DNA of 64,000 bases, taken from contig NZ_LT607733.1 in the NCBI RefSeq assembly GCF_900091445.1, forward strand, positions 5,979,001-6,043,000. The letters are read 5' to 3'. Each line of letters opens with the position of its first letter. The stretch's first letter is position 1. Origin of the DNA: Micromonospora echinofusca. GTDB lineage: Bacteria > Actinomycetota > Actinomycetes > Mycobacteriales > Micromonosporaceae. The notes beneath the pieces were generated by a model that saw nothing but the letters and a program-made list of their open reading frames with translations, was not told the DNA's origin and did not search any database. The position numbers were made by a program, and so were the translations under genes. Shown piece by piece: positions 22,727-26,272 of this stretch.

Positions 22727-23419
22727 TCAGCGGACGTCGTAGGCGAGGACGGGGGTGCCGTCGGCGCGCAGCAGTTCCAGCCGCACCAACTCCGCGTCGG
22801 TGAACCGGGTGGCGCCGGTGATCCGCAGGTCGTCGCCGGGCGCGGCGAGCCAGGACCCGATCTGCTCCGTCGCGCCGCCCGGGCCGTGCGCCACCAGCCG
22901 GAAGGCGTACGCCTTGGCGTAGCCGGCCTTCGCGTCGTACCCGCAGCGCATCCGCACCTCCGTGCCCCACTCGGTGCCGTTGAGGGCGATCTCGGCGTGC
23001 ACCGGCACCGTGCCGGCGACCGGCTGCATGGCGACCATCCGCACCTCGACCGGGGTCGGGGCGGTCGCCTCCCGGGGCAGCAGGACGGCGGTGCCGACGC
23101 CGACGAGCAGGGCCGCCACGGCCGCCGCGAGCGTGGTGAGGGCGTACCGGCGGCGGGTGGCCGAGCGGTCGCGGCGGCGGCGCTCCCGCGCGGCGGCGAG
23201 CAGTTCGGGCACCCGGGGGTTCTCCGGCGGCGGCAGGAACTGTTCCAGGCCGGCCGGGTCGAGGCGGCCGAGCAGGCCGGGCAGGACGGCGATCTCGGCG
23301 ACCGCCTGGCGGCAGGCGGCGCAGCCGGCGAGGTGCCGCTCGTAGGCCACCCGTTCGGCGGGAGCCAGCGCACCCAGCACGTACGCGCCGTCGTCGTGCG
23401 CGAACTCGCACCGGGTCAT
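22727..23419 (-). CDS. Zinc-finger anti-sigma factor
   Basis: 230 residues from the ATG at 23419. The N-terminal zinc-binding anti-sigma (ZAS) domain has His-x3-Cys-x2-Cys as RHLAGCAACRQ, with an upstream His (FAHDDGAYVLGAL). One transmembrane helix follows at about residues 95-118 (LTTLAAAVAALLVGVGTAVL), and then an extracytoplasmic domain of about 110 residues (RskA-like). It is predicted to sequester the sigma factor encoded just upstream. The genes overlap by four bases (ATGA), the usual sigma/anti-sigma coupling. Confidence 0.9.
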   Translation of the reverse strand: MTRCEFAHDDGAYVLGALAPAERVAYERHLAGCAACRQAVAEIAVLPGLLGRLDPAGLEQFLPPPENPRVPELLAAARERRRRDRSATRRRYALTTLAAAVAALLVGVGTAVLLPREATAPTPVEVRMVAMQPVAGTVPVHAEIALNGTEWGTEVRMRCGYDAKAGYAKAYAFRLVAHGPGGATEQIGSWLAAPGDDLRITGATRFTDAELVRLELLRADGTPVLAYDVR

Positions 23420-23931
23420 TCCGTCACCCCCATCTCGGCCAGGACCAACCGTAGTGAGCGCAGGGCGTAGTGGGTCCGGGACTTGACCGTGCCGGCCGGT
23501 ACGCCCAGCCGGGACGCCGCCTCCGCCACCGACCGCCCCTGGTAGAAGCACTCGACCAGCACCTCCCGGTGGGTGGGGCTGAGCCGGTTCAGCGCCTCGG
23601 CGACGGTCCACGCCTCCACCGCGCGTTCCGCCTCGTCCACGGCCTGGACGGGCTCGGGCAGCTCGTCGGTGAAGACCTCGCCGACCCGGGCGGAGCGGCG
23701 CCGCCAGGCGTCGATGGCCAGGTTGCGGGCGGTGGTGAAGAGCCAGGAACGGACCGAGCCGCGCGTCGGGTCGAGCGACTCCGGGTGCCGCCAGGCCCGC
23801 AGCAGCGTCTCCTGCACCAGGTCCTCGGCCCGTTGCCGGTCGCCGTTGACCAGCCGCAGGGCGTGCGCGTACAGCGCCTCCGCGTGCTCGTCGTGCAGCG
23901 CGCGGAGCAGTTGGGCGTCGTCGTCGCTGAT
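23416..23931 (-). CDS. ECF RNA polymerase sigma factor (start codon appears to be ATC)
   Basis: With initiation at the ATC at 23931-23929 the protein is 171 residues: region 2 (EALYAHALRLVNGDRQRAEDL, SWLFTTARNLAIDAWRRR), a linker, and region 4 with the HTH SVAEAASRLGVPAGTVKSR. The ATC is preceded by GAGGAG at a six-base spacing. No ATG, GTG or TTG exists in frame upstream before the first stop. The first standard start is the GTG at 23817, which would delete region 2.1 and part of 2.2. The family resembles SigK/SigL-type group ECFs. It is divergent from phoX and coupled to its anti-sigma factor. See the separate finding on the start. Confidence 0.87.
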   Translation of the reverse strand: MSDDDAQLLRALHDEHAEALYAHALRLVNGDRQRAEDLVQETLLRAWRHPESLDPTRGSVRSWLFTTARNLAIDAWRRRSARVGEVFTDELPEPVQAVDEAERAVEAWTVAEALNRLSPTHREVLVECFYQGRSVAEAASRLGVPAGTVKSRTHYALRSLRLVLAEMGVTE

Positions 23932-24003
23932 GGCGGTCTCCTCGCTGTCGACGCGAGTCCGGCGGTGGCGTTCGCCCGGGAATACGTGCCGCCGCCCCGA
24001 TCG

Positions 24004-24063
24004 GTTCAGCCGCAGGTCACCGTGGGATTCCCGGCCGAGGTGTTCACGCCCGGTTCACGCCGC
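24004..24063 (+). promoter_or_regulatory. PHO box (PhoP-binding direct repeats) upstream of phoX
   Basis: Two adjacent 11-base units, GTTCACGCCCG (24042-24052) and GTTCACGCCGC (24053-24063), match the actinobacterial PhoP direct-repeat pattern GTTCACC at the expected 11-base period. Weaker units lie at 24004 (GTTCAGCCGCA) and 24015 (GGTCACCGTGG). A possible -10 (TAGCGT) is at 24091-24096, which places the repeats over the -35 region, as in known Pho-activated promoters. Confidence 0.75.
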
Positions 24064-24160: not shown

Positions 24161-26272
24161 ATGAGCGACCGTCCCCGGCTGCTCCCGTTGCTGGGCGCCA
24201 CCCGCCACGGCAGCCGCGACGCCATGACCTGTCTCTACCGGTGTGGCAACGCGTGCGACCACCCGGTGCCGAACACCTCCGACAACGCGTACTTCGGGGA
24301 CGTGGTGAACGCGGAGGTCTCCCGGCGCGGCCTGGTCCGGGGCGGCGCGGTCGGCGCGCTGGTCCTCGGGTTCGGCGGCGCGGTGGCCGGTGCCGCCCCC
24401 GCCGCTGCCACCCCCGCCGCCCCCGTGGTCCCCGAGGCGGCCGGCTTCGCCCGCCCGGCCGGCGGCGTCGGCAACGGCGCGCTGACCTTCAAGCCGGTCC
24501 CGCCGAACACCCTGGACAGTCTCGTCGTGCCCAACGGGTACGACCACGCGGTCGTCATGCGCTGGGGTGACCCGGTCGTGCCGGGCGCCCCCGAGTTCGA
24601 CCTGCACGCCCAGACCGCCGCCGCCCAGGCCCGGCAGTTCGGCTACAACAACGACTTCGTCGGGGTGCTGCCGCTGGACGGACGTCGGCGCGCGCTGCTC
24701 GTGGTCAACCACGAGTACACCAACGAGGACCTGATGTTCCCCGGCTTCACGGGCCAGGACGCGCTGAGCGTCGAGCAGCTCCGGATCGCCATGGCCGCGC
24801 ACGGCATGTCCGTGGTGGAGCTGGAGCGGGTCGACGGCACCGGGCAGTGGCGGCCGGTCACCAAGGGCCGGCGGCCGTACAACCGGCGGGTCACGGCGCT
24901 GGCCACGAAGTTCGAGCTGACCGGGCCGGCCGCCGGTTCGGCGCACCTGCGGACGGCCGCCGACCCGAAGGGCCGTACGGTCGTCGGCACGCTGAACAAC
25001 TGTGCCGGCGGGGTGACCCCGTGGGGCACCGTGCTCTCCGGCGAGGAGAACTTCAACCAGTACTTCGTCGGCGGCGACGCGGTGGCCGAGGAGGTCAAGC
25101 CGAAGCTGGCCCGGTACGGCGTCACCACCACCACCCGTTACCCGAGCGGCAGCCGCAAGTGGGAGCGCGCCGACGAGCGGTTCGACCTGGCGAAGCACCC
25201 GAACGAGGCCAACCGGCACGGCTGGATCGTGGAGATCGACCCGTACGACCCGGAGAGCCGCCCGCGCAAGCACACCGCGCTGGGCCGGTTCAAGCACGAG
25301 GGCGCGAACGTCATCGTGGCGAGGAGCGGGCACGTGGTCGCGTACATGGGCGACGACGAGCGCTTCGACTACCTGTACAAGTTCGTCTCCGACAAGAAGT
25401 TCATGAAGGGCAACTCCTGGGTCGCCCGCCGGCACAACCTGACCCTGCTGGAGTCGGGCACCCTCTACGTCGCCAAGCTCGACGAGACCAGCGCCGGCGA
25501 GATCGACGGCTCCGGCCGGCTCCCGTCCGACGGCGCGTTCAACGGCCGGGGCCGGTGGATCAGGCTGGTCAGCGGCAACCGCTCGTACGTCGACGGGATG
25601 ACGGCCGCCGACGTGCTCACCTTCACCCGGCTGGCCGGCGACAAGGTCGGGGCGACCAAGATGGACCGCCCGGAGGACGTCGAGCCGAGCCTGCTCACCG
25701 GCAAGGTGTACGTGGCGCTGACCAACAACACCGACCGGGGCAAGGCCGGCAAGCCGGCCGCCGACGAGGCCAACCCGCGCAACCTCAACAAGCACGGCCA
25801 GGTGCTGGAGCTGGTCGAGGACCGTGGCGACAACGCGGGCGAGACCTTCGCCTGGTCGCTGCCCATCGTCGCCGGTGACCCGGCGGACCCGTCGACCTTC
25901 TTCGCCGGGTACGACAAGACGAAGGTCTCCCCGATCTCCTGCCCGGACAACGTGGCGTTCGACGCCACCGGGAACCTCTGGATCTCGACGGACGGCAACG
26001 CGCTGGGCAGCAACGACGGCCTCTTCGCCACGGCCGTCGAGGGGCCGAAACGGGGTCACCTGAAGCAGTTCCTCACCGTGCCGGTGGGCGCGGAGGCGTG
26101 CGGCCCGTTCATCACCGGGGACAACCGCTCGGTCTTCGTGGCGGTGCAGCACCCGGGCGAGCTGATCGGGGCGTCGGTCGAGAACCCGGCCTCGAACTGG
26201 CCGGACGGCGACTTCGCCAAGCCGGGCGTGGTGGTGGCCTGGCGCCTGGACGGCGGCCCGATCGGCAGCTGA
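24161..26272 (+). CDS. phoX: PhoX-family (DUF839) alkaline phosphatase, Tat-exported
   Basis: 703 residues from the ATG at 24161, 14 bases after the start of AGGAGG. The N-terminus is long: a conserved three-Cys segment (MTCLYRCGNACDHP) precedes a twin-arginine signal SRRGLVRGG (Arg55, Arg56) and a hydrophobic stretch ending AGAAPA. The catalytic body has the PhoX/DUF839 features VVNHEYTNEDLMFPG, GGVTPWGTVLSGEENF and RPEDVE, residues used in this family to bind calcium and iron. It releases phosphate from phosphomonoesters outside the cell. The PHO box upstream indicates phosphate-starvation control. It ends in a hairpin. Confidence 0.92.
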   Translation: MSDRPRLLPLLGATRHGSRDAMTCLYRCGNACDHPVPNTSDNAYFGDVVNAEVSRRGLVRGGAVGALVLGFGGAVAGAAPAAATPAAPVVPEAAGFARPAGGVGNGALTFKPVPPNTLDSLVVPNGYDHAVVMRWGDPVVPGAPEFDLHAQTAAAQARQFGYNNDFVGVLPLDGRRRALLVVNHEYTNEDLMFPGFTGQDALSVEQLRIAMAAHGMSVVELERVDGTGQWRPVTKGRRPYNRRVTALATKFELTGPAAGSAHLRTAADPKGRTVVGTLNNCAGGVTPWGTVLSGEENFNQYFVGGDAVAEEVKPKLARYGVTTTTRYPSGSRKWERADERFDLAKHPNEANRHGWIVEIDPYDPESRPRKHTALGRFKHEGANVIVARSGHVVAYMGDDERFDYLYKFVSDKKFMKGNSWVARRHNLTLLESGTLYVAKLDETSAGEIDGSGRLPSDGAFNGRGRWIRLVSGNRSYVDGMTAADVLTFTRLAGDKVGATKMDRPEDVEPSLLTGKVYVALTNNTDRGKAGKPAADEANPRNLNKHGQVLELVEDRGDNAGETFAWSLPIVAGDPADPSTFFAGYDKTKVSPISCPDNVAFDATGNLWISTDGNALGSNDGLFATAVEGPKRGHLKQFLTVPVGAEACGPFITGDNRSVFVAVQHPGELIGASVENPASNWPDGDFAKPGVVVAWRLDGGPIGS

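Follow-up and report, generated by a model that had tools for sequence, protein, structure and literature searches.

A conserved AUC codon as the predicted translation start of a SigL-type ECF sigma factor gene in Micromonospora, and its probable limitation by initiation factor IF3

The question raised by this locus of a soil bacterium is where translation of the gene for an ECF sigma factor, a stress-response regulator, begins if ATC stands at the place where a start codon is expected. In the window, by which we mean the whole 64,000-nucleotide stretch of the Micromonospora echinofusca genome that was analysed, a Shine-Dalgarno (SD) sequence GAGGAG is followed at a distance of six bases by ATC and the codons AGC GAC GAC. 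An earlier note on this DNA had described this arrangement, with which the sequence agrees, and had offered two readings of it: a real ATC start that would limit the sigma factor at the translation step, or else a sequencing error or a disabled gene. The features of the locus (window coordinates) are as follows:

23416..23931, minus strand: ECF sigma factor gene of the SigL type, 171 codons, read from ATC to TGA (23418-23416)
23929..23931, minus strand: predicted ATC start codon, assigned from the genus orthologues and the coding signal of codons 2-38
23938..23943, minus strand: SD sequence GAGGAG, its spacer ACCGCC (23937-23932) leaving six bases to ATC
23981..24008, minus strand: predicted SigL-type promoter TGAACC-N16-CGTATT, a motif match, probably autoregulatory
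22727..23419, minus strand: predicted anti-sigma gene (zf-HC2), its ATG overlapping the sigma stop codon as ATGA

The note had also stated that the frame upstream of ATC lacks ATG, GTG and TTG before a stop, and this holds over all 41 codons back to the preceding stop in the window genome. As it had further said, the frame read from ATC encodes region 2 of an ECF sigma factor, and the first standard codon downstream, GTG 23817, would cut into that region: it is codon 39, and a start there would cost 26 of the 68 residues of the Pfam domain Sigma70_r2 (residues 13-80). On the plus strand, a divergent gene at 24161-26272, which by eye looks like one for a PhoX-type phosphatase, has its intergenic region in common with the sigma promoter.

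The Pfam search of the sigma protein returned regions 2 and 4 (Sigma70_r4 at residues 113-161), and region 3 was not among its matches. The protein scored 232.3 bits against the NCBIfam model NF007227 (PRK09645), the cut-off of which is 202, and its best solved relative was M. tuberculosis SigL (6dv9; E 9.8e-44, residues 5-170 aligned on 11-176). By these profile and structure matches, 23416..23931 is a gene for a SigL-type ECF sigma factor. The product of 22727-23419 contains a zf-HC2 domain (E 1.6e-7) and reached 48.6 bits with the anti-sigma model NF052375, below the cut-off of 100. Its start overlaps the sigma stop in all 149 genus loci compared (ATGA in 140, GTGA in nine), and the domain together with the overlap fits an anti-sigma gene. 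In 149/149 loci the start of this gene is preceded by an SD-like match; two controls taken from the same coding sequence gave 0/149 and 109/149, and in view of these controls we gave up the idea of a separate ribosome-binding site for it.

To compare the start place across the genus, we used 160 Micromonospora genomes, in 149 of which an orthologue was found; all 149 were compared. The codon at the start place was ATC in 146 and GTC in three, and ATG, GTG or TTG in none; ATC was followed by AGC in 128 and by AGT in 12 of the 149 loci. Named Micromonospora records agree, with ATC in 22, but they come at least partly from the same assemblies and do not count as independent. An SD match of at least 4 nt lay 4-20 nt upstream of the codon in 149/149 loci, compared with 8/149 for a control stretch 29-45 nt upstream. 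The three GTC loci (L241, L256 and L285) all have an in-frame GTG 9 nt upstream, and in these the start may have shifted to that GTG, so that the old codon was free to change, or the GTC may itself serve as a start like that of sigR. No orthologue of comparable strength was found in 11 of the 160 genomes (G022, G028, G031, G036, G037, G058, G061, G066, G070, G149 and G154), of which seven are small (5.1-5.9 Mb) and four are assemblies of 590-990 contigs.

Upstream of the gene, the SigL-type motif matched once in the window and not at all in 100 shuffles of the window, and TGAACC-N15-17-CGTATTC occurs once in the whole genome. The motif resembles the SigL promoter, the consensus of which includes TGAACC. 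Within 200 bases upstream of the gene, TGAACC-N16/17-CGT was found in 143/149 genus loci and, with the stretch read backwards, in 0/149; when TGAACT was also allowed and the best match taken, the counts were 148/149 genus and 76/76 family loci. The −10 element begins with CGTA in 147/148 genus loci. The predicted promoter is thus of a kind that the sigma factor should itself recognise, and it is probably autoregulatory. With the transcription start taken as 10-14 nt past CGT, the predicted leader in the window would be about 40-45 nt long; it holds the SD sequence and no standard in-frame start. In an RNA structure prediction for the native sequence, the start codon had a mean unpaired probability of 0.72 and the SD stretch one of 0.37, with an overall value of 0.45.

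We consider it probable that translation of this SigL-type sigma factor begins at AUC and that this start makes it IF3-limited, holding the sigma factor below its anti-sigma factor. The AUC start and its conservation are read from the sequence comparison; IF3 control and low yield are suggested by analogy with infC and Streptomyces sigR. The sigma gene would be transcribed from the promoter that its own product should recognise, giving a short leader with a good SD sequence. The initiator tRNA would mispair at the third base of AUC, IF3 would reject many of the resulting complexes, and little sigma factor would be made per mRNA. Since translation of the overlapping anti-sigma gene would begin at a standard codon (ATG, in 9/149 loci GTG) and that of the sigma gene at AUC, the sigma factor could stay below the anti-sigma factor, and the positive feedback loop would lie idle until some signal released the sigma factor. 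An A directly after the start codon, as in ATC AGC, might help a weak codon.

It is possible, but rather unlikely, that the ATC start limits the yield as a fixed low setting under the anti-sigma factor, with no signal passing through IF3. Such a setting would fit the sequence data as well; the discrimination of IF3 against AUC, which is general knowledge from infC, speaks against it. The work on Streptomyces sigR bears on both sides: enhanced translation of SigR from its GTC start under oxidative stress could not be demonstrated, as a fixed setting would have it, whereas weakened IF3 led to a constitutive SigR response, and the level and fidelity of IF3 did alter the SigR level (Feeney et al. 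2017, PMC5472188, cited here and below from the part of its text available to us).

We regard it as very improbable that translation begins further upstream and that ATC is an internal isoleucine codon, even though the window frame is open before it. A standard in-frame codon lies somewhere upstream in 86/149 loci, in a scan that ran back to an in-frame stop or to the end of the fetched DNA, and there is none in the other 63, the window genome included; no upstream start is common to the genus, which answers the check on homologues that the earlier note had proposed, as does the absence of ATG from the start place. The commonest such codon, 63 nt before ATC in 47/149 loci (45 GTG and 2 ATG), would favour an upstream start, but in 47/47 it falls within the predicted promoter spacer, 9 nt before CGT. 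It would not be transcribed from the predicted promoter, but could serve in a longer transcript made from a different one. Within the predicted leader, a standard in-frame start is found in nine of the 149 loci: six have GTG at 9 nt, one has ATG at 6 nt and two have ATG at 45 nt upstream. The DNA just ahead of ATC does not resemble coding sequence. Its length, counted from the −10 element, ranges from 47 to 79 nt and takes in all three frames (86, 39 and 23 loci out of 148). In-frame stops stand inside the predicted leader of six genus loci, with no standard start between stop and ATC: in L243 a TGA precedes ATC by 9 nt, and in five more loci a stop precedes it by 39 nt. In L090, from a near genus, an in-frame TAG lies 27 nt before ATC, again with no standard start between, so that both L243 and L090 would need another rare codon.

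A start at GTG 23817, giving a truncated or inactive sigma factor, with ATC as the mark of a dead gene, is hardly credible. In its favour, this GTG is the first standard downstream codon in the window and in 97/149 genus loci; against it, only 131/148 loci have GTG as codon 39, and in the 52 loci outside those 97 the earliest standard codon falls at one of 11 different positions. Codons 2-38 evolve as protein, with 1.84, 0.62 and 8.92 parsimony changes at positions 1, 2 and 3, respectively (148 loci; L055, which loses register towards its end, was left out), and this concentration of changes at the third position indicates that the codons ahead of GTG 23817 are translated. The first 162 codons are free of stops in 149/149 orthologues, which speaks against a dead gene.

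For a sequencing or assembly error of ATG, which has nothing in its favour beyond the oddity of the codon, the chance is negligible, since ATC in 146 of 149 species genomes and the absence of ATG exclude a misread base. As general readings, the upstream start, the downstream GTG start, the dead gene and the sequencing error were each rejected by the comparison; of the options in the earlier note, the real ATC start is the one that the conserved codon and open frame bear out, and the error or disabled gene is the one that the relatives contradict.

The third base of the ATC codon showed no change in the parsimony count, whereas at the 32 C-majority fourfold sites of the sigma gene the changes to or from G numbered between 3 and 25, with a mean of 11.2. 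If ATG were neutral here, several species would be expected to have it; none does, which argues for selection against the stronger start, and ATG seems to be selected against at this place, by a count that uses few sites and a one-gene tree. We rejected the constancy of the third base as a proof of the start, because the internal Ile73 codon (one third-base change) and other C/T third bases of the gene (mean 6.5 changes, some with 0 or 1) also vary little. Since an isoleucine ATC is little variable in a GC-rich genome, its constancy tells only against ATG.

Outside the genus, 76 family loci were aligned, and the codon at the start place was TTG in 31, GTG in 16, ATG in three, ATC in 12 and ATT in one; in the remaining 13 the aligned column holds no start codon, standard or rare, and is, by this alignment, not the start. 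Distant genera have mostly TTG or GTG, and a standard start at the aligned place in these genera, like the SD match in all the genus loci, speaks for ATC as the start. We dropped the idea that their TTG is a weak start, because TTG at the sigR start gave more SigR than ATG or GTG in Streptomyces (PMC5472188, available part). In the near-genus locus L102, ATCAGCGACCAGGAC lies three codons further up, part of it repeated, with no standard start between; the ATC of this locus sits three codons further up than in the other loci.

In a family tree of 270 leaves, built from this one short gene, there are three switches between a standard and a non-standard start label, and the one linked to L102 is very probably an alignment artefact. 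The tree may reflect one origin of ATC with losses or two origins, and fits both alike, because the smallest clade containing all 163 non-standard leaves, with 182 leaves, has a support of 0.60.

A second gene above the NF007227 cut-off is present in genus genomes (e.g. G000:C1:4566368-4566880, L372). Among 20 genus loci of this gene (L372-L391), the aligned N-terminal place holds GTG in 16; GTG is absent from it in L372, L379, L380 and L388, the last of which has CTG. As this gene passes the same cut-off, the gene with ATC may or may not be the one-to-one orthologue of M. tuberculosis sigL.

Among the known systems close to this one is SigL/RslA of M. tuberculosis, to which the locus is similar in its best structural match, SigL, in the adjoining zinc-finger anti-sigma gene and in the promoter. 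The two differ within the −10 motif, where CGT is followed by A in Micromonospora, whereas M. tuberculosis SigL prefers CGTG (PMC6372665, from the part of the text available). In that same part, we saw no non-standard start for M. tuberculosis SigL. Among open-licence papers in PMC, taken by their titles and the beginnings of their abstracts, no report of a non-standard start was found for a SigL-type gene or in Micromonospora.

Rare AUU and AUC starts are familiar from infC, the comparison that the earlier note had drawn, and it proves apt: in Micromonospora, infC starts with ATC AGC behind an SD sequence (GGAGG CCCC ATC AGC in 12/12 loci, L314-L325), the same six bases as in the sigma gene, and in other families its start was ATC in seven and ATT in one of eight loci. 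The difference is that infC does not encode a sigma factor. In infC the rare start lets IF3 feed back on its own production (PMC5472188, available part).

The nearest parallel, to which the earlier note had not referred and which lends the best support to a limit at the translation step, is Streptomyces sigR. As given in the available part of PMC5472188, the GTC start of sigR is repressed by IF3, which holds SigR below its anti-sigma factor; changing GTC to a standard codon led to overproduction of SigR and a constitutive regulon; and the start was GTC in 32/34 Streptomyces sigR genes and GTT in two. For sigR counterparts of other genera, the authors report no evidence for a GTC start. At their 5' end, ten Micromonospora sigR loci have the standard codons GTG and TTG, and thus the rare start in this genus is probably not on sigR. 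Both systems have an ECF sigma gene with a non-standard start behind a good SD sequence, kept across a genus, followed by an anti-sigma gene with an ATGA overlap, and both are autoregulated, in Micromonospora by prediction. They differ in the sigma factor, the codon and the genus: SigR, GTC and Streptomyces there, a SigL-type factor, ATC and Micromonospora here. Streptomyces sigR is also transcribed from a second promoter and yields a longer isoform that starts at an upstream ATG (same source, part available), with no genus-wide counterpart seen in the 149 Micromonospora loci. The ribosome-binding site of the Streptomyces anti-sigma gene has been demonstrated according to that text, whereas the Micromonospora gene has an SD-like match of a kind common in one control. 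Likewise, the effect of IF3 was demonstrated for sigR and is suggested by analogy for the Micromonospora gene.

ECF sigma genes with a rare start that is sensitive to IF3 are known from sigR, and the present case would differ in its sigma factor, codon and genus. We lean towards the view that IF3 control of ECF sigma factors arose more than once, on sigR with GTC in Streptomyces and on a SigL-type gene with ATC AGC in Micromonospora and near genera. If this is true, IF3 would be a recurrent translational governor of the balance between sigma and anti-sigma factors, and rare starts would be expected to lie hidden in other sigma genes too; genes that start with codons other than ATG, GTG and TTG are easily missed or mis-started in annotation, as sigR and infC illustrate (PMC5472188, part available). 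A rare start place kept in the genomes of 149 species, with mostly TTG or GTG in distant relatives, would offer a natural experiment on the translational control of a sigma factor, and as a second case beside Streptomyces sigR it lets one ask why sigma/anti-sigma pairs would fall under IF3.
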